Below are positions 33,883 to 46,892 of a stretch of DNA of 50,840 nt, in pieces (position 1 is the stretch's first letter; each line of letters begins with the position of its first letter). The DNA comes from an uncultured bacterium (GTDB taxonomy: Bacteria > Actinomycetota > Actinomycetes > S36-B12): NCBI GenBank assembly GCA_903850745.1, contig CAINMH010000138.1, positions 1 through 50,840 of the forward strand. The letters run 5' to 3'. The position numbers were made by a program, and so were the translations under genes. The notes beneath the pieces are model-generated. The model was given only the letters and a program-made list of their open reading frames with translations, did no database searches and had not been told where the DNA came from.

Positions 33883-34761
33883 ATGAAGCCACCACGGTTC
33901 GAATATTTGCGGCCTGACTCGGTCGGCGCCGCAGTTGCCCTGTTGAACGAACATGGCGAGGGCGCTCGCATTCTTGCGGGTGGCCAGAGCCTCATCCCGA
34001 TGATGAACTTCCGGATCGCGCAGCCGTCGCATCTGATCGATATCACCCGAGTTCCGGGACTGGATGCCATCACCGATGAGGGAAACGCCATCACCATCGG
34101 TGCTGCCGTGCGACAGTCAACAGTTGAGTATTCACCGGTTGTCAAGGATCGCTGCCCGCTCTTAGTGGAGGCGCTCAAGTGGGTTGCCCATGAGCCAATT
34201 CGCCACCGGGGCACAGTCTGTGGCTCCCTTGCACACGCCGATCCGCACTCAGAGTTAGCAGCGACTTCACTGGCACTTAACGCCACCTTCACTGTGGTGG
34301 GGGCTTCGGGCGAGCGTCAGGTCCCGGCAGTAGATTTCTTTATTGGGCCATTCACCACTGTGATCGAGTCGGGCGAAATGCTCTCATCAGTGTCCTTCCC
34401 GGTAGTGCCGGCAGGTTCTGGTTATGCGATCGATGAGTTCAGTCGTACGCATGGCAATTTCGCAATTGCGGGTGGCGTTTCGGTTATTCAGCTTGGCGCC
34501 GATGGCAAGGTCGCTTCTGCGACGCTGAGCATGTTTGGCATGGCAAGCCGCGCATTCCGCGCATTTGCCGCCGAGGAGCGGCTCATTGGCTCGATGCCGA
34601 CAGCCGAGGCCATTGCCGAAGCTGCAGACCTTGCACTCGTCGACGTTGATTGCAGCGCGGACATGCACGGCTCGGAGGAATACCGCGCACATCTCGGCCG
34701 TGTCTACGCGGGCCGAGTCTTGACTTCTGCAGTAGCACGCGCTCAGGGAGGATCGAAGTGA
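33883..34761 (+). CDS. Mo-hydroxylase FAD-binding (medium) subunit
   Basis: ILAGGQSLIPMMNFRIAQPSHLIDI, HRGTVCGSLAHADPHSEL. Confidence 0.95.
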   Translation: MKPPRFEYLRPDSVGAAVALLNEHGEGARILAGGQSLIPMMNFRIAQPSHLIDITRVPGLDAITDEGNAITIGAAVRQSTVEYSPVVKDRCPLLVEALKWVAHEPIRHRGTVCGSLAHADPHSELAATSLALNATFTVVGASGERQVPAVDFFIGPFTTVIESGEMLSSVSFPVVPAGSGYAIDEFSRTHGNFAIAGGVSVIQLGADGKVASATLSMFGMASRAFRAFAAEERLIGSMPTAEAIAEAADLALVDVDCSADMHGSEEYRAHLGRVYAGRVLTSAVARAQGGSK

Positions 34762-35303
34762 GCAACATTGACAAGCACGAAATTACACTCAACATCAACG
34801 GGAATTCGACGAGCCTGACTGTCGAAGGACGCACACTTTTGCATGACACGCTCCGGCGCGCTGGGATGGTGAGCGTCCATGCTGGGTGCGAGCACGGGGT
34901 CTGCGGCGCCTGCACAGTGCGCATCAATGGGCAGTCGGCCCGTTCGTGCATCACCCTGGCCGTCCAGGTTGATGGAGACGAGATCACCACGGTGGAGAGT
35001 CTTGCTAAAGGCGAGGAACTTAACATCATCCAAGAAGCGTTTTGGCGTCGCCATGGCCTTCAGTGTGGGTTCTGTACTCCGGGTATGCTGATGCGCGTAA
35101 CAGAGTTTCTTGAGGAGAACCCGGATCCAACCCGCGACGAAGCCCGCGAGGCAATCGCAAGCAACCTGTGCCGGTGCACTGGCTACCAGCACATCATTGA
35201 TTCCGTCATTGAGGCAGCCGCTCGTTTGCGTGGCGAAGAATGGTCTGACGACGCCGGTATCCCGGCGCGTGAACTTGGTGATGCGACGGAGGTGAGCAAC
35301 TAA
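34758..35303 (+). CDS. Mo-hydroxylase 2x[2Fe-2S] small subunit
   Basis: CEHGVCGACTVRINGQSARSC and CGFCTPGML...CRCTGYQHI; GTG start in GTGA overlap. Confidence 0.95.
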   Translation: MSNIDKHEITLNINGNSTSLTVEGRTLLHDTLRRAGMVSVHAGCEHGVCGACTVRINGQSARSCITLAVQVDGDEITTVESLAKGEELNIIQEAFWRRHGLQCGFCTPGMLMRVTEFLEENPDPTRDEAREAIASNLCRCTGYQHIIDSVIEAAARLRGEEWSDDAGIPARELGDATEVSN

Positions 35304-37708
35304 TGGGTCTCGGTGGCATGAACAAACTCAATTGGATTGGTCGATCCCTTCCTAGGGTGGAAGATAAGAAGTTCCTCATGGGTCGAGGCGGCTACATCGA
35401 CGACATGGACTTACATGGGATGTTGCACGTAGCTGTGCTCCGAAGCCCATTTGCGCACGCCATCATCAAGGGCATGGACACCTCGGCCGCTGAGGCGCTG
35501 CCAGGTGTGGTTGCCGTCATCACAGGCAAGCAGGCCGCGGAGCTCTGCGACTGGATGCCCGACTTCAACCCAGAGCCCAACCTGCACAAATGGCGTGTTC
35601 TGGCCGATGAGAAGGTCCGTTACGTCGGCGAAGGCGTTGCAGTGGTTGTTGCCGAGAGCCGCTACATCGCGGAGGATGGCCGAGATCTCATCGAGGTTGA
35701 TTACGAGCCCTTGGCTCCGGTTCCTAGCGCTCGAAAGGCGCAAGAGGCTGGCGCGGCACTGCTTCATGACGGCATGGAGTCCAACGTCGCACACGACAGC
35801 ACCCTTGCGTTCGGTGATGTCGACGGCGAATTCGAGCGTGCTGCGCACATCGTCCGGGAGCATGTTTATTGGGGTCGCACGGCGGCTCAGCCCATGGAGA
35901 CCGCAGGCTCGGTAGCAAGCTACAACCCAGGCAATGGAATGCTGACAATTCATGCCAATTCCGTGGCCCTGACCAACTTCTCGTTCCTGGTCGCTGGCAC
36001 GCTGAAAATCGATAGCAACAAGCTTGATCTTGTGCCGATGCCGGCAGGTGGAAGTTTCGGTTCGAAGTTCTGGGCAACTCGCGCCACTGTCACAGCGGGC
36101 ATGTGTTCGAAGTTCCTTGGCCGCCCGGTCAAATATGTCGAGGATCGCTTGGATCACGCTCTGAGCTGTGATCATCACGGATCTGAGCGTGAGTACGACA
36201 TCGAGATGGCGATCTCGGCGGACGGCGAGTTCCGTGCTCTTCGTCTTGTCTGCACGGACGACTATGGTGCCTACTTCCAGTTCGGCCTCGGCACTCATGG
36301 CAATGCGATGTCCCAAGTCATCGGGCCCTACGACATCAAGGCGATCTCCTATCGCGCGGTTGGCGTGCTGACTAATAAGTGTCAGCAAGGTGCATACCGC
36401 GGATTCGGTTCCGAGGTTCACAACTTCGCGCTCGAACGCCTCGTCGACAAGGCAGCGATCGAACTTGGCGTAGATGCCTTGGAGCTGCGTCGCAAGAACT
36501 TCATCACGCCGGATAAGTTCCCCCACAAGATCCCCGGCGGCAACGTCTACGACTCGGGCAACTATGAGGCGGTTCTTCAGGAGGCGCTAAAGGATGCCAG
36601 GCTTGACTACTGGAGGGCTGAGCAGGCTAAAGCCCGTGAAGAGGGTCGATACGTCGGCATCGGCATCGTGACGCAGCAGGAACGAAGCGTCTATGCAGCT
36701 AACGAGTGGTGGTTCTTCCGTGGCGCAGAGGGCGTGTCCAGCGTGCCCGAGAGCGTCTCGCTACATGTTGATGCACTAGGCAAGGTCTCTGTGACTATGT
36801 ACTCCACTGCATTCTGGGGCAACTCGCCTGAGACAGTGGCGGCGCAGGTTCTCGGAGAGGAACTCGGTGTCAACCCCGACGAGGTGTCCTTTGCGTATCA
36901 GGGCACCAATAAGGGTTTGCCCGGTAGCGGCCCCGGTGGCAGCCGATTCACCGTGATGATCACGGGTGCTGTTCAAGGCGCCTCAGCAAAGATCCGCGAC
37001 AAGGCAATCAAGATCGCTGCGCACATGCTTGAGGTTGCTGAAGGCGATCTGGAGTATGTCAATGGTGGCGTTCAGGTGAAGGGCGATCCAAGTCAGCGCA
37101 AGTCGCTGGCCGAGATCGCGATCATGCCGCGGCTCTTCAAGCACCAGTTGCCCGATGACATCACCAGCGGTTTCGATGCGGACATGGTCTACGACCATCC
37201 GTACACGACGCTTCCTACGGCCGATCGTAGCGATCTGGGCATCTTCTACCCGATGATGGCGCACGCCACTCATATTGCTGTCGTTGAGGTGGACGTTGAG
37301 ACTGGTGGAGTCAAGTTCCTTGACTACATAGCAGTGCATGACTGCGGCACTGTCGTGAACCCGCGCTCGCTTGACGGTCAGGTCATTGGCGGTCTGGCGC
37401 AGGGCGTTGGCCAAGCGCTATATGAGGAATTTGTCTACGACGATGAGGGACAGATTCAGAGTTCGTCGTGGCTGGATTACCTAATCCCGTCCGCGATGGA
37501 AATCCCCGAGGTTCGTCTTGGCCATCACGAGACTCCTTCGCCCTTTACTCCCTACGGCATGAAGGGCGGCGGCGAAGGTGGTCGTATGCATGCGCCTGCA
37601 GCAATCGCGAGCGCTGTCGACGACGCCTTGAAGCCGCTCGGTGCTACTCGAGCGACACATTTGCCGTTGACCCCGGAGCGGATCATTTCCATGGTTAATG
37701 GGCACTGA
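35303..37708 (+). CDS. Mo-hydroxylase large subunit (xanthine dehydrogenase/aldehyde oxidase family)
   Basis: GRSLPRVEDKKFLMGRGGYIDD, QGAYRGFGSE, GMKGGGEGGRMHAPAAIASAV. Confidence 0.95.
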   Translation: MGLGGMNKLNWIGRSLPRVEDKKFLMGRGGYIDDMDLHGMLHVAVLRSPFAHAIIKGMDTSAAEALPGVVAVITGKQAAELCDWMPDFNPEPNLHKWRVLADEKVRYVGEGVAVVVAESRYIAEDGRDLIEVDYEPLAPVPSARKAQEAGAALLHDGMESNVAHDSTLAFGDVDGEFERAAHIVREHVYWGRTAAQPMETAGSVASYNPGNGMLTIHANSVALTNFSFLVAGTLKIDSNKLDLVPMPAGGSFGSKFWATRATVTAGMCSKFLGRPVKYVEDRLDHALSCDHHGSEREYDIEMAISADGEFRALRLVCTDDYGAYFQFGLGTHGNAMSQVIGPYDIKAISYRAVGVLTNKCQQGAYRGFGSEVHNFALERLVDKAAIELGVDALELRRKNFITPDKFPHKIPGGNVYDSGNYEAVLQEALKDARLDYWRAEQAKAREEGRYVGIGIVTQQERSVYAANEWWFFRGAEGVSSVPESVSLHVDALGKVSVTMYSTAFWGNSPETVAAQVLGEELGVNPDEVSFAYQGTNKGLPGSGPGGSRFTVMITGAVQGASAKIRDKAIKIAAHMLEVAEGDLEYVNGGVQVKGDPSQRKSLAEIAIMPRLFKHQLPDDITSGFDADMVYDHPYTTLPTADRSDLGIFYPMMAHATHIAVVEVDVETGGVKFLDYIAVHDCGTVVNPRSLDGQVIGGLAQGVGQALYEEFVYDDEGQIQSSSWLDYLIPSAMEIPEVRLGHHETPSPFTPYGMKGGGEGGRMHAPAAIASAVDDALKPLGATRATHLPLTPERIISMVNGH

Positions 37709-37767: not shown

Positions 37768-38811
37768 ATGAGAGCGACGCTCATCTACGGCGCGCATGAT
37801 GTTCGATCCGAAGAGATCCCCGATGCGCGCATCCAGAGCCCGACAGATGCCGTCATCCGAATTCTGCGATCATGTATTTGTGGCAGCGATCTGCATCGGT
37901 ACAACGCTATGCCGGCGACAGTGGTGGGCGTCTCCATCGGACATGAGTGTTTGGGCATCGTCGAAGAGATCGGAAGCGATGTCACGGGCCTGGGTCGAGG
38001 TGATTTAGTAGTTTCACCGTTCTCGTATTCAGATGGTGAATGCGACTTCTGCCTTGAGGGCCTGACGAGTTCCTGTCGACATGGTGGTTTTTACGGGCAC
38101 GGGCGGGACGGCGCATCGGGGATGCAGGCCGAGGCAGCGCGGATCCCACTGGCCGACACTACGCTGGTTAAGCTCGGTGTTGCTGAGGATTCTGCGTTAC
38201 TTTCTGGACTTCTGACGCTCGCTGATGTTTTGCCCACGGGTCATCACGCTGCAGTGGTTGCGCGAGTGGGCCCGCGGACCTCGGTCACTGTCATTGGTGA
38301 TGGGGCTGTCGGTCTGTGTGCAGTCATTGCCGCAAAGCGGCTTGGCGCAGAGCGCATCATCTTGATGGGTCGGCACGACGACCGTCTTGAGCTTGGTCGT
38401 GACTTTGGGGCCACCGATCTTGTACCTGAACGTGGCGATGAGGGAGTGAAACGTGTGCGCGAGTTGACACGGGGCGATGGCACTCATGCAGTTCTGGAAT
38501 GCGTTGGCCATTTGGACGCCTATGAGCAGGCGCTCGGAGTTGTTCGCGCGGGAGGAATTATCGGCCGGGTAGGAGTCCCGCAATATGAGGTTGGTCCTAT
38601 CGGAATCAACACAATGTTCATGCGCAATATCACGTTGAGCGGTGGCCCCGCGCCAGTGCGTGCCTACATCGACGAACTTCTACCCGAGATCCTAGACGGG
38701 TCGCTACTAGCTGGCAAAGTCTTTGACTTGAGTCTGCCATTGGAGTCCGCCCCCGAAGGTTACCGCGCAATGGCGAACCGTCGAGCGCTCAAGGTGATGC
38801 TCACACCCTGA
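37768..38811 (+). CDS. Zinc-dependent alcohol dehydrogenase family protein
   Basis: CICGSDLHRY, IGHECLGIVEEIGSDV, CDFCLEGLTSSC; Rossmann VIGDGAVGLCAVIAAK. Confidence 0.93.
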   Translation: MRATLIYGAHDVRSEEIPDARIQSPTDAVIRILRSCICGSDLHRYNAMPATVVGVSIGHECLGIVEEIGSDVTGLGRGDLVVSPFSYSDGECDFCLEGLTSSCRHGGFYGHGRDGASGMQAEAARIPLADTTLVKLGVAEDSALLSGLLTLADVLPTGHHAAVVARVGPRTSVTVIGDGAVGLCAVIAAKRLGAERIILMGRHDDRLELGRDFGATDLVPERGDEGVKRVRELTRGDGTHAVLECVGHLDAYEQALGVVRAGGIIGRVGVPQYEVGPIGINTMFMRNITLSGGPAPVRAYIDELLPEILDGSLLAGKVFDLSLPLESAPEGYRAMANRRALKVMLTP

Positions 38812-39448
38812 ACAACTCGGCCAATTCGATGCGGGTTCGCCGGATATGTCCTGTGAGGTAACGCTCGCCATCCTCGACGTCTTGTCGCTCGATGGCATCG
38901 ACGAGTAGTTCATGTTCTGCGTTGACCATAGCGCGACGATGCGGTGTGGCCACCTGCATGAACGCGCGACGGTAGTGCTGGGTGCTGTTCCAGAAACGTT
39001 CGACGGTGGTCAGCAATGTCACGCTGGGACAGGCTGAGTAGGTGAGCATGTGGAATTGGCGATCCAAAGTGAGGAAGTCGATCAGGCCATCTTCGCGGGC
39101 GATTCGGTCCTGAATTTCATGGAGTTGCGCTACGGCAAGCGGTGTCAGTAGGGGGATGCTTGATGTGAGCGCGAGGGGCTCAAGCCGTTCGCGCATTTCG
39201 TAGACGATCGAGAGTTCTTCGCCGTCAAGTTCGGGGACACGCGCCCCCTTGTTCGTTTCCAACTCGACAAGTCCTTCGGCCGCAAGCATTCGCAGAGCCT
39301 CTCGTACGGGGAGTCGGCTCGCGCCGAATTCCGCAGCGACATCCTCTTGTCGAATCCGAGTGCCGGGAGCGAGCTCTCCAGCGAGAATCTGAGCCCTGAG
39401 ATGGCTTGCTACCCGCTCACTTGCGGTGCTCGAGGCCGCAGCAGTCAT
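38801..39448 (-). CDS. GntR family transcriptional regulator, FCD domain (FadR/VanR subfamily)
   Basis: VASHLRAQILAGELAPGTRIRQEDVAAEFGASRLPVREALRMLAAEGLVE wHTH; all-alpha FCD C-term. Confidence 0.95.
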   Translation of the reverse strand: MTAAASSTASERVASHLRAQILAGELAPGTRIRQEDVAAEFGASRLPVREALRMLAAEGLVELETNKGARVPELDGEELSIVYEMRERLEPLALTSSIPLLTPLAVAQLHEIQDRIAREDGLIDFLTLDRQFHMLTYSACPSVTLLTTVERFWNSTQHYRRAFMQVATPHRRAMVNAEHELLVDAIERQDVEDGERYLTGHIRRTRIELAELFRV

Positions 39449-39960
39449 GCGAACCTCGATGGGTCCTTGTCGAAGGCCTTGCCATCGGGGTAGGAGACCA
39501 GTTCAAATTGCATGCCCCATGGTGACATGAAGTAGACCCAGCGCTGACCCTCACTCGCACCTTTGCTGGCAGTTGACTCGCCAAGGATTGTTACGTGGTG
39601 ATCACGCAGGTGCTGAATCGCTTCGTCAAGATCATCGACGTAAAGCGCTATGTGATGTCCGCCAATGTCGCTATTGCGCGGCTGAGAATCGTTGGCTTCG
39701 GGCGCTTCGTACTGGAAGACCTCAAAGACGGCCTGCCCACCGCATCGGTAGAAGCGCAGTTCGCGCATGACCGTGAGTGGATCAACATTGAGGTGCACGG
39801 ACATCCAGTCATCGTCACTATGGAATGGGCCGAGGCGGTACAAGTATTCGCACCCGATGACGTCGACAAGCCAGGCATGGGCTTGCTCAAGGTCGGGCAC
39901 AGTGAAGCCGATGTGGTCTAGGCCGCGTAGGCCGGGAAGTCCTGGCATGGTGGCTCCCAT
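39445..39960 (-). CDS. VOC superfamily (glyoxalase/extradiol dioxygenase-like) protein
   Basis: LRGLDHIGFTVPDLEQAHAWLVDVIG; DIGGHHIALYVDDLDEAIQHL; FMSPWGMQFELVSYP. Confidence 0.9.
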   Translation of the reverse strand: MGATMPGLPGLRGLDHIGFTVPDLEQAHAWLVDVIGCEYLYRLGPFHSDDDWMSVHLNVDPLTVMRELRFYRCGGQAVFEVFQYEAPEANDSQPRNSDIGGHHIALYVDDLDEAIQHLRDHHVTILGESTASKGASEGQRWVYFMSPWGMQFELVSYPDGKAFDKDPSRFA

Positions 39961-39970
39961 CAGAGAGATA

Positions 39971-39980
39971 ATGGATCCAT
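39971..39980. promoter_or_regulatory. Putative GntR operator O2, palindrome ATGGATCCAT
   Basis: Direct reading; shares TGGATCCA core with 40032-40043. Confidence 0.6.
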
Positions 39981-40031
39981 TTATGGTGAAGTATGACCTA
40001 TATTGCGATATTTTAGGGAAAAGCCTTGCCG

Positions 40032-40043
40032 ATTGGATCCAAT
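40032..40043. promoter_or_regulatory. Putative GntR/VanR-type operator O1, palindrome ATTGGATCCAAT
   Basis: Perfect 12-bp palindrome between possible TTGCCG (40026) and TAATCT (40050) promoter elements. Confidence 0.7.
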
Positions 40044-40082
40044 ATGAGGTAATCTCCCGTCACCGACTGGCGGAGGTTTCAC

Positions 40083-42260
40083 ATGCCCGAACACAAGTCC
40101 CTGAGCCCACATGCCCCATGGGTCGAAGTTACGACGACGCCGGAGGATTGGGACAGCGCCGACCCGGGACTGCTGACCAGCATGTTCAGTCAGATGGTCC
40201 TGATTCGGTCCTTTGAGAAGTATGTCCTCGAGCTAGCCGGTGCCGGCCTGATTCACGGCCCAGCACATTCGAGCATCGGTCAGGAAGGCGCTGCGGTCGG
40301 ATCTGGACTCGCGCTAATCCCGGGTGACACCGTCAACGGATCACATCGCGGGCACCATCAGTTCCTTGCCAAGACGCTCCAGCATGTCGCTCCTGAAGGG
40401 ATCGATCCCACCGCACCAATCTCGGTCGAGGTACAGGGCCTGATGCTGAGGACTCTTGCGGAGATCGCGGGCCTTGATCGGGGATTCAGTCATGGACGCG
40501 GTGGCTCCATGCATCTGCAGTGGAACGAAGCTGGCGCGATCGGTACGAACGCGATTGTCGGCGGCGGGGTGCCTCTTGCGGCCGGATCGGCTTTTGCGCA
40601 TCAGCATGCGGGCACCGAAAACATCGCAGTCACCTACTTCGGTGACGGGGCCTCCAATATCGGCTCGACCCTTGAGACTTTCAATCTCGCTGCGGCCTGG
40701 CACCTGCCACTGTGTTTCTTTATTGAGAACAACCTTTATGCAGTGTCGACACACATCGATGAGGTCACGGCGGACTCTCGGCTTTCTGGCCGTGGTCCGG
40801 GCTTTGGCCTGGCCGCTTGGAAAGTAGATGGGATGGATCCTCTCGCGGTCTATCTGGCGTCCATGGAGGCTGCTGCGTACATGCGCGAGGGTCATGGTGC
40901 AACCGTGATTGAGGCGGATACCTACCGCTACTTCCATCAGAACGGCCCTTTCCCGGGAAGCGCCTTTCGCTACCGCAGCAAGGAGGAAGAGTCCTCTTGG
41001 CGTTCGCGCGATCCCATCGAGCTAGTTGCCTCCCATCTGGCTCGACGAGGTGTGCTCTCTGAGGATCAGGCCACGGCTTTCGTGATTGCCGCGGATGCGG
41101 TCATGGCCGGACTGGGTGATGTTCTTCTCGAACCGAAGCCGGACGGCAAGCCAGGTGAGCGTCGAATCAAGCCGTCGGAATGGCCGGACCCGGCATTCGT
41201 TGATGTCGGCATTCGTGGTGATCTCAGCGAGTTCGAGGGGGCAACGTTTAGTGACCGAGACTCCTATGCGGGTGGCATTGAGCAAATGAAGGTTATCGAT
41301 GCAGTCGCTGTCGTTATGGGACGTCGGATGGAGATGGACCCCCGCATAGTCGTCTTGGGCGAAGATGTACATCGCCTCAACGGAGGCACGAATGGTGCGA
41401 CTAAGGGCCTTCGTGACCTTTATCCAGCTCGAGTACTTGGTACGCCTATTTCGGAGAATGCTTTCACCGGCCTGGCTGGAGGCATGGCGCTTGACGGCCG
41501 CTTCCGGCCTGTCATCGAATTCATGTATGCGGACTTCATGTGGGTCGCCGCAGATCAGTTGTTCAATCAGATCGCTAAGGCGAGGCACATGTTCGGTGGC
41601 AAGGACCCCGTACCGGTAGTGCTCCGTAGCAAAGTCGCGATTGGCACGGGTTACGGTTCCCAGCATTCGATGGATCCTGCTGGAATTTTCGCCACCTCAG
41701 CGGGCTGGCGAATCGTGGCGCCCTCGAATCCGTTCGATTACGTCGGACTCATGAACAGCGCTCTGCGATGCGACGACCCGGTCTTAGTAATCGAGTCTGT
41801 TGATCTATACAACTCAACGGGCGATGGTCCAGCGGGTGATCTTGATTACTGTCTTCCGGTCGGCAAAGCGGCTGTGAAGAATACGGGTGCAAAGGGAACA
41901 ATCATTACGTATGGCACCATGACCAATTTTGTGATGGAAGCGGTCAAAGAGTTGGACGCTGATGTTGACGTCATTGACTTGCGATGGCTCGATCGTGCCA
42001 GTTTGGATTGGGAGACGATCTCTGCAAGCGTCAAAAAGACCAATGTCGTTCTGATTGCTGAGCAGGGTGCCGTCGGCACAAGTTATGGCGGTTGGCTTGC
42101 CGATGAGATCCAGCGCCGGCTTTTCGACTGGCTTGATGCCCCGATTGAGCGGGTGACTGGGAGTGTTGCTTCGCCGAGCATCAGCAAGGTGCTTGAGCGC
42201 GCTGCTTTCGCGCAGGCGCCAGAGGTTGTTGCAAAGCTTCGTCAGATGTTAGGGGCCTGA
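40083..42260 (+). CDS. Fused alpha-beta 2-oxoacid dehydrogenase E1 component (acetoin/branched-chain/pyruvate type)
   Basis: TPP motif GDGASNIGSTLETFNLAAAWHLPLCFFIEN; beta domain GEDVHRLNGGTNGATKGL, ISENAFTGLAGGMALDG. Confidence 0.93.
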   Translation: MPEHKSLSPHAPWVEVTTTPEDWDSADPGLLTSMFSQMVLIRSFEKYVLELAGAGLIHGPAHSSIGQEGAAVGSGLALIPGDTVNGSHRGHHQFLAKTLQHVAPEGIDPTAPISVEVQGLMLRTLAEIAGLDRGFSHGRGGSMHLQWNEAGAIGTNAIVGGGVPLAAGSAFAHQHAGTENIAVTYFGDGASNIGSTLETFNLAAAWHLPLCFFIENNLYAVSTHIDEVTADSRLSGRGPGFGLAAWKVDGMDPLAVYLASMEAAAYMREGHGATVIEADTYRYFHQNGPFPGSAFRYRSKEEESSWRSRDPIELVASHLARRGVLSEDQATAFVIAADAVMAGLGDVLLEPKPDGKPGERRIKPSEWPDPAFVDVGIRGDLSEFEGATFSDRDSYAGGIEQMKVIDAVAVVMGRRMEMDPRIVVLGEDVHRLNGGTNGATKGLRDLYPARVLGTPISENAFTGLAGGMALDGRFRPVIEFMYADFMWVAADQLFNQIAKARHMFGGKDPVPVVLRSKVAIGTGYGSQHSMDPAGIFATSAGWRIVAPSNPFDYVGLMNSALRCDDPVLVIESVDLYNSTGDGPAGDLDYCLPVGKAAVKNTGAKGTIITYGTMTNFVMEAVKELDADVDVIDLRWLDRASLDWETISASVKKTNVVLIAEQGAVGTSYGGWLADEIQRRLFDWLDAPIERVTGSVASPSISKVLERAAFAQAPEVVAKLRQMLGA

Positions 42261-42262
42261 TC

Positions 42263-43522
42263 ATGGCTGAGCTAATGCTGATGCCAGAAGTCGCAGCGGG
42301 TTCTGAAGCAGCCGTCTTGTCGTCGTGGTCCGTCCCGCAAGGCACGACGTATGCAGCAGGTGATGTTCTGGCCGTGATTGAAACAGAAAAGGCGATCGTC
42401 GAGTACGAGGCTGAGGCGGCTGGCGTCTTTGTCCAAGCGTTGGTGAAGGATGGCGCGGAGATCAAGGTCGGTGCGCCCATCGCATTGATCGCTCCCGTAG
42501 GTGAAGTCGTCACCGACGTGCCAGCAACGTTGGCAACTCTTGGCTTTGGTGGAGAAGAGGCAGCGAAACGAAGTACAGACGCAGCTACGGATGAGTCTGC
42601 CGCTGGTCCGCAACCCACGCCAGATTTCACACCAACATCCGTCGTTGACGTGAGAGGGAGTCGTGCCTTTAGCAGTCCCCTAGCAAGAAAACTCGCGCGT
42701 GAGGCCGACATCGAAGTGTCGACGCTAACCGGAAGTGGCCCCGCAGGGCGCATTGTGCGATGTGATGTGGAAGCGGCCATAGCCGCTGGCCCAATCGTTG
42801 CATCCTCTTCACCTCGACCGGGCGTCGCAGCACCGGCGGCCGGTGGTTTTGTCGATGTGCCGCACACGCGCCTTCGGCGTGCGATTGCTAAGCGGCTCAC
42901 CGAAAGCAAGACGACGGCACCGCACTTCTATCTTCGAGGTACAGCACGAGTGGATGCGCTTCTCCAGCTTCGCGAGCAGATCAATTCTGGTGGGGATGTT
43001 CGTGTATCTGTCAATGATCTACTCATTAAGGCAATGGCGCGTGCACATGTGCTCGTGCCGGGGATGAATGTGACGTGGAGCGCTGACGCGATTCGGCAAT
43101 ACGCAAGCGTGGACATCGCCGTTGCGGTTGCGACGGAAAATGGTCTAGTCACGCCTGTCGTGCGTGGGGTGGAGAATCTGTCTGTTTCTCAGATATCAGC
43201 GGTAGTGCGTGACTTTGCTGAACGTGCTCGCACTGGTCGGTTGACGCAAAACGAGCTCGAAGGTGGGAGCACTAGCATCTCGAACCTTGGGATGTACGGC
43301 ACTGAGGAGTTCGCGGCAATCATCAACCCGCCGCAAGCGTCGATCCTCGCGGTGGGCGCCACTCGCCAAGCTCCGGTGGCGCTAGATGGCTCTGTGGTAA
43401 TAGCCAACGTCCTCACGGTCACTTTGAGTGTCGATCATCGCCCAGTTGATGGTGTGCTCGCGGCGCAGTGGATGAAGGTATTCATCGATCTACTCGAAGC
43501 GCCTGCTCGGATACTTGCTTAG
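42263..43522 (+). CDS. 2-oxoacid dehydrogenase E2 (lipoamide acyltransferase)
   Basis: Lipoyl ETEKAIVEYEAEAAG; PSBD SSPLARKLAREADIEVSTLTGSGPAGRIVRCDVEAA; catalytic DHRPVDG. Confidence 0.94.
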   Translation: MAELMLMPEVAAGSEAAVLSSWSVPQGTTYAAGDVLAVIETEKAIVEYEAEAAGVFVQALVKDGAEIKVGAPIALIAPVGEVVTDVPATLATLGFGGEEAAKRSTDAATDESAAGPQPTPDFTPTSVVDVRGSRAFSSPLARKLAREADIEVSTLTGSGPAGRIVRCDVEAAIAAGPIVASSSPRPGVAAPAAGGFVDVPHTRLRRAIAKRLTESKTTAPHFYLRGTARVDALLQLREQINSGGDVRVSVNDLLIKAMARAHVLVPGMNVTWSADAIRQYASVDIAVAVATENGLVTPVVRGVENLSVSQISAVVRDFAERARTGRLTQNELEGGSTSISNLGMYGTEEFAAIINPPQASILAVGATRQAPVALDGSVVIANVLTVTLSVDHRPVDGVLAAQWMKVFIDLLEAPARILA

Positions 43523-43976: not shown

Positions 43977-44486
43977 TCAGGTTCGGGACCCGGGATCGGC
44001 GGGGGAGTGATCGCCACCGGAGATCTGGTCAAGGGCATGGGCGAGCACGGGGGAGATAACGGCCAGGCCGTCGCGGACGCCCCCGGTCGAACCGGGGAGA
44101 TTGATGATCAGAGTACGACCAGCGACCCCCGCGATACCGCGAGAAAGCATCGAGCTTGTAACTCCCTGCGCAGCGCCGTAGGCACGGATTGCCTCTGAAA
44201 TCCCTGGGGCCTCGCGATCGATCACGCGCCGCGTCATCTCCGGAGTGAGGTCCATCGGTGTTAGGCCGGTTCCGCCCGTTGTGATGACGCAGTGGGCTCC
44301 GCCCGCGACGGCATCGCGAAGTGCGGATTCCACGGGCTCGCCGTCGGTGACAACTATCGGCTCACCGATTGCTAAACCCAATTCACGCAGGCCCCGAACC
44401 AAAATGGGTCCGGACTTGTCCTCCCAAACGCCGGCCGCCGTCCGAGTGGAGACGGTGATTACAACTGCGGTGCGTGGGATAGACAT
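43977..44486 (-). CDS. MoaB/Mog-family molybdopterin adenylyltransferase-like protein
   Basis: VITVSTRTAAGVWEDKSGP, CVITTGGTGLTPMDLTPEM, GRTLIINLPGSTGGVRDG. Confidence 0.92.
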   Translation of the reverse strand: MSIPRTAVVITVSTRTAAGVWEDKSGPILVRGLRELGLAIGEPIVVTDGEPVESALRDAVAGGAHCVITTGGTGLTPMDLTPEMTRRVIDREAPGISEAIRAYGAAQGVTSSMLSRGIAGVAGRTLIINLPGSTGGVRDGLAVISPVLAHALDQISGGDHSPADPGSRT

Positions 44487-45104
44487 TTAACGCGTGCGCT
44501 TGCGAGAGGAGATGATGACCACCAACACCACGACAGCAACGACTCCGATCGCGACTGGAATTAGGCGTTTGAGTACTGGGGCTCCTGCCGCACCGAGCAG
44601 GTCAATACTCTCGGCCGCCTGTGGCACCACAACGGGCTGGTCAGTCACAGGATTGACTTCTGCGGCAATGACGGCGGAGAGGTTCGCGGCGAATTGGTCG
44701 ATGATTCGTCCGGCGACGTCCTGCATCACTCCCCGCCCGAACTGAGCGGGCTTACCGGTGACGACCAGATCGGTCACGACCTCGACGCGAGTGCTCGTCG
44801 GGCTCTCAGCGACCAACTGGGTAGTGACCAGAGCTTTTGCGGTTCCTGACCCGCGGCTCTCCTTGCCGCTGGCGTCGATCACCGCTCGGCCATTGGCCTC
44901 ATCGGTTTCTACGAAGCGGGCAGTTCCGCCGTATGTCATGGTCACGGGGCCGAGTTTGACCTTGACCGTGCCCTCAAAGGTGTCGCCCTCGGACGCGGTG
45001 AGCACCGCCCCCGGCATGCAGGGGGCAATCCGGTGAATGTCGAGCAGGGCCTTCCACGTCGTCTCGATATCAGCCGGAACGACGAAAGAGTTCTGAAGAT
45101 CCAC
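44487..45104 (-). CDS. CoxG-like SRPBCC protein with C-terminal membrane anchor (second paralogue)
   Basis: MDLQNSFVVPADIETTWKALLDIHRIAPCMPGA; C-term PVLKRLIPVAIGVVAVVVLVVIISSRKRTR. Confidence 0.92.
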   Translation of the reverse strand: MDLQNSFVVPADIETTWKALLDIHRIAPCMPGAVLTASEGDTFEGTVKVKLGPVTMTYGGTARFVETDEANGRAVIDASGKESRGSGTAKALVTTQLVAESPTSTRVEVVTDLVVTGKPAQFGRGVMQDVAGRIIDQFAANLSAVIAAEVNPVTDQPVVVPQAAESIDLLGAAGAPVLKRLIPVAIGVVAVVVLVVIISSRKRTR

Positions 45105-45170
45105 GGGATTCCCCTCAAGGTGGTTAGTGCTCGGCCGTTAGTCTGCCACTTGAGAGAGGAGACTGCCATC

Positions 45171-45425
45171 GTGGGAGAGAAAGTCACAGTAGGGCTATAC
45201 GCCGCTGCAAGGGTCGCTGCGGGCCGCAAAGAAGCCCAAGTGGCTCCTGGAACACTCACTGAGGTTCTGGCCGAACTCGTTGCTGTGAGCGACGCCAAAC
45301 TGGGGGACGTCCTACAGCAGTGCTCGTTGTTGCTGGACGGCCTGGCCGTTCACGAAGATCCCGGTGTTGTTGTGGTGGCTGCCGGATCGCAACTGGATGT
45401 GCTACCGCCGTTTGCGGGCGGTTAG
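45171..45425 (+). CDS. moaD: MoaD/ThiS-family sulfur carrier protein
   Basis: VTVGLYAAARVAAGRKEAQV...LPPFAGG with C-terminal GG; GTG start preceded by GAGAGAGGA. Confidence 0.85.
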   Translation: MGEKVTVGLYAAARVAAGRKEAQVAPGTLTEVLAELVAVSDAKLGDVLQQCSLLLDGLAVHEDPGVVVVAAGSQLDVLPPFAGG

Positions 45426-46441
45426 CCGCCGATCGCCGACATCGGGCGGTCGGGCTGGATGAAGCTTGGGTCGTTGATGCCGTGTCCGGGGAGTTTGCCT
45501 GCGACGCACCCGCCGATGGCTGCAGCGATTGCGCTGGCTTGAGCAGAGTGGTCGAGTTCGCCGCGAAGTATCGGACGCAGGTCGGTCTCCTCGCGGGAGA
45601 ACAGACACGAGCGCAGTTGGCCATCTGCAGTGAGTCGCAAGCGGTCGCATGCTCCACAGAACGGGCGCGTCACGCTGGCAATGATGCCGACGGTCTGCGT
45701 GGTCCCGTTGACGAAGAACTCTTCGGCCGGGGCTGATCCACGAACCGGAACAGGGGACAGGTCGAAGGCTTCGGAGAGAGCGGACTGAATATCGTCAGCC
45801 GTCACCATTCGTGGGCGGACCCATAGGTTGCCGGCATCCAACGGCATCTGCTCGATAAAGCGGAGCTGCCAGCCTTCGTCGAGTGCGCGACGAAGGAGTG
45901 CCACAGCTTCGTCATCGTTGACCCCGCGCATGAGAACGCTGTTGATCTTGATTGGCGTGAGACCAGCCGTTCGTGCCGCCGAAAGACCCGCAAACACGTC
46001 ATCAATGCGATCACGCTTGGTCATCTCGGTGAAGCGGTCGCGGTCGAGGGTGTCAAGGCTGACATTGATGCGCTCAAGGCCCGCGTCACGAAGTGGACCC
46101 GCAAGTCCGGCAAGGCGCAGGGCGTTGGTTGTGACAGAAACTCGAGGAGCCTTGGGTAATGCCGTGATACGACGTACGACGTCCACGATGTCAGGGCGTA
46201 GCAGCGGCTCGCCACCGGTGAGGCGCACTTGGTCAATTCCGAGCTCGGTGGCCGTCTCGATAACTCGCATCATCTCGTCGGTGGTGAGCAGTTCGGGAGT
46301 GGGAATCCAGTCAGCGAAGTCAGCGGGCATGCAATAGGTGCATCGCAGAGAGCACCGGTCTGTCAAGGACACTCGAAGATCGCGATGTTCACGGCCGAAT
46401 GAGTCGGTGAGAAGGTCAGTGCTCATGCGCAGTTCACCCAC
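45422..46441 (-). CDS. moaA: GTP 3',8-cyclase
   Basis: Radical SAM CSLRCTYCMP; C-terminal CGACDRLRLTADGQLRSCLF; terminal GG; start may be 46426. Confidence 0.97.
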   Translation of the reverse strand: MGELRMSTDLLTDSFGREHRDLRVSLTDRCSLRCTYCMPADFADWIPTPELLTTDEMMRVIETATELGIDQVRLTGGEPLLRPDIVDVVRRITALPKAPRVSVTTNALRLAGLAGPLRDAGLERINVSLDTLDRDRFTEMTKRDRIDDVFAGLSAARTAGLTPIKINSVLMRGVNDDEAVALLRRALDEGWQLRFIEQMPLDAGNLWVRPRMVTADDIQSALSEAFDLSPVPVRGSAPAEEFFVNGTTQTVGIIASVTRPFCGACDRLRLTADGQLRSCLFSREETDLRPILRGELDHSAQASAIAAAIGGCVAGKLPGHGINDPSFIQPDRPMSAIGG

Positions 46442-46845
46442 TCCTCTGTGCCATCGGCAAATGTTTGATGCTTCCAGACGGGCAACTTCTCTTTTGTTGT
46501 GTCGACCAGGTCACTGCATGCGGCAAAAGCCTCGCCACGGTGAGCCGCGCTAACGGCCGCGATCAGAGCCGCATCACCTACGGCCAGTGCTCCGACGCGG
46601 TGGAGAACCGCAATAGCAATAACATCGTGCCGGGCTGCTACCTCGGCGGCGACCTCTGCAAGGACTGCGGCAGCGCTGGGATGGCCTTCGTAGTCGAGAT
46701 GGGCTACTTCGCGGCCGTGGTCGTGGTTGCGGACGTCACCGCTGAAGGTCACTGTTGCCCCAGCGGCCGGATCCCCCACTGCAAGTCTCACCTCGTCTAG
46801 GAGAATTGGGCGATCAACCACGTCGCTGAGCCGAACAGAAGTCAT
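46423..46845 (-). CDS. moaE: Molybdopterin synthase catalytic subunit
   Basis: FSGDVRNHDHGREVAHLDYEGH; HRVGALAVGDAALIAAVSAAHR; KEKLPVWKHQ. Confidence 0.95.
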   Translation of the reverse strand: MTSVRLSDVVDRPILLDEVRLAVGDPAAGATVTFSGDVRNHDHGREVAHLDYEGHPSAAAVLAEVAAEVAARHDVIAIAVLHRVGALAVGDAALIAAVSAAHRGEAFAACSDLVDTTKEKLPVWKHQTFADGTEEWVNCA

Positions 46846-46892
46846 ACAGGCATTATTGGGCATAGCGGTCTATTCCACTCACCGGAGGCGTC

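Follow-up and report, generated by a model that had tools for sequence, protein, structure and literature searches.

Regulators of the VanR group within the GntR/FCD family are recognised by an FCD domain of six helices instead of seven (PMC7797058). The group includes VanR of Caulobacter crescentus, whose operator word is ATTGGATCCAAT, and the VanO operator contains a BamHI site (PMC4920640). In Acinetobacter the vanA promoter carries two sites 63 bp apart. The structurally described member Atu1419 of Agrobacterium fabrum (PDB 6z74, 6za3) carries its short palindromes within a divergent promoter region, where one lies between the -10 and -35 elements; its effector is N5,N10-methylenetetrahydrofolate, and citrate in this protein offers an analogy for a metal-bound carboxylate ligand (PMC7797058). 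Arg45 of Atu1419 reads G3 of the operator and Thr46 touches the central A5, and the group offers a precedent for a tetramer bridging two palindromes, while dimers are the usual state of GntR proteins (PMC7797058). Another VanR-group repressor, AlkR of Pseudomonas aeruginosa (9isw), has a palindrome that overlies the promoter of its target (PMC12042122); its operator is ATTGTCAGACAAT and its effector a long-chain acyl-CoA. In general, FCD consensus operators carry GT..AC (PMC4494728).

We compared these systems with a divergent locus in a window of 50,840 nucleotides, the whole stretch of DNA that was analysed. The features of this locus are as follows.

38801..39448, minus strand: GntR/FCD regulator of the VanR group (Pfam GntR and FCD, structure model, Foldseek, conservation)
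39445..39960, minus strand: VOC protein, glyoxalase/epimerase-like, first gene of the regulator's transcript (Pfam Glyoxalase_4)
39970..39981, no strand: candidate operator O1, AATGGATCCATT, a 12-bp palindrome kept in relatives
40026..40031, plus strand: -35 element TTGCCG of the E1 promoter, its TTG kept across 27 aligned promoters
40032..40043, no strand: candidate operator O2, ATTGGATCCAAT, a 12-bp palindrome in the E1 promoter spacer, kept in relatives
40050..40055, plus strand: -10 element TAATCT of the E1 promoter, its A and T in register in 27 promoters
40072..40076, plus strand: GGAGG ribosome-binding site of E1, from the sequence
40083..42260, plus strand: E1, fused alpha/beta, of a 2-oxoacid dehydrogenase (Pfam E1_dh, Transket_pyr, Transketolase_C)
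42263..43522, plus strand: E2 lipoyl acyltransferase (Pfam 2-oxoacid_dh, E3_binding, Biotin_lipoyl)

The 38801 protein belongs to the GntR superfamily, FCD subfamily: its N-terminal winged helix-turn-helix (GntR, PF00392) and C-terminal FCD domain (PF07729) scored 66.8 and 79.9 bits, above the curated Pfam cut-offs of 27 and 24.3 bits. The AF2 model (pLDDT 92.7) has six predicted FCD helices (76-100, 103-118, 122-136, 143-165 with a one-residue break, 169-187 and 191-213), as in the VanR group, and with Foldseek the solved folds near the model were McbR (4p9f; 21-23% identity), PmiR (7xp0/7xp1; 28-29%), Atu1419 and AlkR. Like Atu1419, the protein appears to have a three-His metal site. Asp129 of this predicted site was found in 47 of 48 orthologs and each of His133, His179 and His201 in all 48, a pattern matching the Asp-His3 arrangement of metal-binding FCD regulators; Arg86, Trp153, Thr156, Arg160 and Arg161 were also invariant or nearly so across these 48 sequences. 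The recognition helix reads S44-R45-L46-P-V-R49, sharing the S44-R45-x46 motif with Atu1419.

The two palindromes that the initial annotation had located in the 122-bp gap between the VOC-GntR and E1-E2 transcripts are both present as placed, and the first grows to 12 bp (39970-39981). They occupy the spacer between the minus-strand VOC-GntR operon and the plus-strand E1-E2 operon, which has a G+C content of 44%, and their centres are 62 bp apart, about six helix turns; the corresponding sites of Atu1419, in contrast, are 190 bp apart. The figure of 122 bp is the gap between the VOC and E1 open reading frames; judging by comparison with relatives, the true VOC start is probably the second ATG at 39948, and the gap would then measure 134 bp. 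The expected number of copies of TGGATCCA in this spacer is 0.0016, and the probability of at least two is ~1e-6. Over the entire window four copies were observed against 0.9 expected, and the other two (25885 and 49749) are without A/T flanks on both sides. We found only five WWTGGATCCAWW sites in the whole 2.57-Mb genome and none of the reversed control pattern. Two of the five are O1 and O2, which form the sole pair, two lie within genes and one is intergenic. The intergenic one, a single ATTGGATCCATT at G000:C23:5645-5656 (L001), has a thiolase gene on one side and a VOC gene of the epimerase-like kind on the other, with a crotonyl-CoA reductase-like gene nearby; it is a possible distant member of the regulon.

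Of the 86 genomes of the family, 25 have an ortholog of the 38801 protein, and so do other Actinomycetota and Pseudomonadota (45-68% identity); a phylum-wide search gave no further ortholog among the seven candidates scored per genome. We took 25 non-redundant loci with a complete VOC-GntR/E1 divergent spacer, among them Nocardioides, Allosalinactinospora and two Pseudomonadota. At least one copy of TGGATCCA was present in all 25 spacers and two copies in 22, so that the non-conservation in orthologous divergent promoters, which the initial annotation had named as a refutation, is contradicted by every complete spacer compared. The orthologs of L038 (M. chlorophenolicum) and L047 had no matching site in their available flanks, and the VOC and E1 neighbours were missing there too. 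Further site pairs, each with one degenerate member, were observed in R. opacus at the promoter of a neighbouring NAD-dependent succinate-semialdehyde dehydrogenase (SSADH; L070 7443/7505) and in Citricoccus at an MFS transporter promoter (L073 5155/5207). Both pairs are phased, and they count in favour of a regulator acting on these operators. Some loci (L014, L017, L020-L023, L028) have one more TGGATCCA within the E1 gene, 63-64 bp beyond O2. We did not count it as an operator, since it falls in the codons TGG ATC CAR for a conserved W-I-Q and coding coincidence may explain it. Lone AATGGATCCAAT sites elsewhere in the relatives were set aside; they lie mostly within genes. One entry of the collection, L036 (CAMAWO010000101.1, titled as a Bifidobacterium breve MAG), carries a regulator sequence identical to that of G046 of the window's family, and looks wrongly labelled or derived from a contaminated bin.

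When 27 promoters were aligned on O2, a TTG upstream and A...T downstream were the only other constant bases. The E1 promoter was thus recovered by comparison of relatives alone, and the suggestion that the second palindrome sits between -35 TTGCCG and -10 TAATCT is borne out, as it stands in register with a promoter kept at 27 loci. The -35/-10 spacer holding this proximal operator is 17 bp across relatives and 18 bp in the window. A generic sigma-70 consensus scan of the O1/O2 spacer gave no promoter at its threshold, and on the VOC side no promoter was definable from the aligned relatives. For most of the relatives (L010-L028), only 28 bp separate the beginning of the operator core from the E1 start codon, which follows the -10 element by about six bases; the E1 mRNA is therefore probably leaderless in most of them. 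Unlike these, the E1 of the window has a leader with GGAGG.

We also compared the distances between the two operators. Across the spacers, the core distances fall at 52, 62-64, 72-75 and 104 bp, with 83 and 65 bp at further loci besides the Acinetobacter vanA value. With a period of 10.5 bp, the Rayleigh R (vector strength) is 0.89 at an offset of -0.15 bp. None of 200000 random sets matched this in a lineage-level null (0/200000), and p was 2e-5 when only changes of spacing class were counted. As an internal control, 168 genomes were scanned without bias for TGGATCCA pairs 48-78 bp apart. The E1-linked pairs (52, 62-64, 73 and 74 bp) were phased, R = 0.905, whereas pairs elsewhere were not (n = 11, R = 0.45, p = 0.11); the reversed control word gave zero pairs. 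As the spacings are whole helix turns, O1 and O2 lie on one face of the DNA and, as in the Atu1419 region, appear to be positioned for bridging within one promoter region.

The operators described here carry GG..CC, in contrast to the GT..AC of the FCD consensus; likewise, Atu1419 with Thr46 has ATGTATACAT (GT..AC) while the 38801 protein with Leu46 has TTGGATCCAA (GG..CC). We classified the operators as symmetrical (TGGATCCA), hybrid (TGTATCCA/TGGATACA) or GT/AC (TGTATACA) and observed that residue 46 of the recognition helix tracks base 4 of the half-site in the 42 orthologs with sites. None of the 29 Leu/Met46 orthologs has a hybrid or GT/AC site, whereas hybrid sites were found in 12 of the 13 with Ile/Val46 (Fisher 1.2e-9). 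On the tree residue 46 changes seven times; in independent contrasts over supported branches, a mean of 4.7 of 5 pairings went the same way, and the sign test value of 0.0625 is the limit for five pairs. Five loci that were added once the rule stood (L186-L190) all conform to it, L190 being close to L029. Among paralogs, the Val type had 28 hybrid and 10 symmetrical sites and the Thr type two GT/AC and three hybrid sites, with 0-2 for control words. Two cases depart from the rule: L044, where Ile goes with a symmetrical site, and the VanR of Acinetobacter, where Gln goes with TGGATCCA. A first rule, which paired every aliphatic residue at position 46 with TGGATCCA (Fisher 0.001), was dropped because V/I regulators mostly have hybrid sites and the Acinetobacter VanR has Gln. 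The covariation of residue 46 with base 4, as read from these alignments, appears to be new here, and it ties the sites to the adjacent regulator and not to another factor. We advance only tentatively the wider proposal that residue 46 may be a base-4 specificity switch (L/M for TGGA, I/V also for TGTA, T for TGTA), that tetramers may close micro-loops of five, six or seven turns, and that co-resident FCD regulators of different operons may share one word.

The resemblance to VanR concerns the fold group and the operator. The initial annotation had equated the palindrome with the Caulobacter VanR operator word, and rightly so: ATTGGATCCAAT is kept at vanA promoters beside VanR relatives (L180-L182), and here too it stands at the target promoter. 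A text search of the literature for the literal operator returned no regulator paper. The 38801 protein is 25% identical to VanR (against a VanR sequence entered by hand), the target genes differ, and no vanillate demethylase (vanA/vanB) was present among the scanned neighbouring genes; the protein does not qualify as a VanR ortholog. In many relatives, moreover, ATTGGATCCAAT marks the promoter of an acyl-CoA dehydrogenase-CaiB/BaiF-GntR operon (L104, L113, L126, L149, L150), sometimes in two copies 19 bp apart. The dehydrogenase of this operon is glutaryl-CoA dehydrogenase-like (sequence judged by eye), and its FCD regulator is only ~30-39% identical to the 38801 protein. Several genomes (e.g. 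G004, G006, G017, G031) have both regulators with near-identical operators. Since the word is common to several FCD regulators, it says little about the ligand and gives no hint of a vanillate-like one. The initial annotation had proposed a VanR-like autorepressor with an aromatic or acid effector. The VanR-group fold and the geometry of autorepression agree with this, and an acid would fit in general, as the conserved Asp-His3 site suits a metal-bound carboxylate or acid effector by analogy with citrate in Atu1419; the aromatic, vanillate-type part is not supported, given the low identity to VanR, the E1-E2 and VOC neighbours and the sharing of the word with another FCD regulator.

Several other explanations of these sites have to be weighed. 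Chance palindromes with no function are scarcely credible: 8-base words recur randomly and the window has its two additional copies of TGGATCCA, but the probability of the pair in this spacer is very small, and the retention of the sites in all 25 spacers already contradicts such an origin. It is improbable, though less so, that O1 and O2 serve another regulator, e.g. a second FCD protein that uses this operator word, with the 38801 protein binding elsewhere. The occurrence of ATTGGATCCAAT at acyl-CoA dehydrogenase/CaiB operons with an FCD regulator of their own speaks for this, and another such regulator could also bind the same word; against it, the operators co-vary with residue 46 of the adjacent regulator, and a search of the window's genome with the 38801 regulator gave only two matches at E<=0.001. 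It is very improbable that the 38801 protein is a genuine VanR with vanillate or some other aromatic acid as its effector. It shares the operator word and the VanR-group fold, but the distance in sequence, the lack of vanA/vanB nearby, the E1-E2 and VOC targets and the presence of the word in non-aromatic operons all argue otherwise.

A more serious alternative concerns only what happens between the sites. Two dimers may bind O1 and O2 independently, with no contact or loop, and the phase may come from another constraint, such as two polymerases on facing promoters or shared spacer ancestry. The usual dimeric state of GntR proteins agrees with this, and 52-75 bp is short for a loop. However, separate lineages differ in distance by whole turns (52, 63, 73, 83, 104) and yet keep the phase, it is seen also at promoters other than this divergent pair (SSADH in R. 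opacus, MFS in Citricoccus), and pairs elsewhere in the same genomes are unphased. We therefore regard independent binding as possible but somewhat doubtful.

We consider it highly probable, from sequence comparison, that the 38801 regulator has O1 and O2 as its pair of operators and that it represses E1-E2 and its own operon until an effector arrives, with the bound dimers most likely touching or bridging. The comparisons above show where the sites stand in the promoter, that they are conserved and phased, and which fold and metal site the regulator has; binding, repression, looping or bridging and the effector class we infer as follows. The effector-free regulator would occupy both operators. 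Occupancy of O2, between the -35 and -10 elements, would shut down E1-E2, and that of O1, at the head of the VOC-GntR transcript, would shut down the regulator's own operon. As the two sites share one helix face, six turns apart, the bound dimers would most likely be in contact, whether they form a single tetramer that closes a small DNA loop or simply touch as two dimers. The regulator would then be released by a metal-bound carboxylate, which is probably consumed or produced in the E1/E2/VOC pathway. Repression is preferred to activation because of the operator position only.

The neighbours that recur elsewhere, namely E3, SSADH, SDRs and amidase/RidA, hint that the pathway may cleave a 2-oxoacid or an acetoin-like compound. 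In the window, genes of a three-subunit molybdenum hydroxylase of the aerobic CO dehydrogenase/xanthine dehydrogenase type (33883-37708) adjoin the cluster, and genes of the molybdenum cofactor type lie around 43977-46863; the hydroxylase is possibly an aldehyde oxidase of the E1/E2/VOC pathway. Near an E1 relative on a Paenarthrobacter plasmid we also noted an annotated Pycsar cyclase/effector pair (L074 20009-21338).

For most of the very many GntR/FCD regulators no operator is known. The system described here joins the known VanR-group regulators, and its phasing and residue-46 rule are the parts worth testing. The locus gives a set of regulator, operators and targets kept from Actinomycetota to Pseudomonadota. 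Several regulators share the well-known operator word of VanR, and the ligand is not predictable from it; the residue-to-base and spacing rules may be usable for operator prediction and biosensor design.
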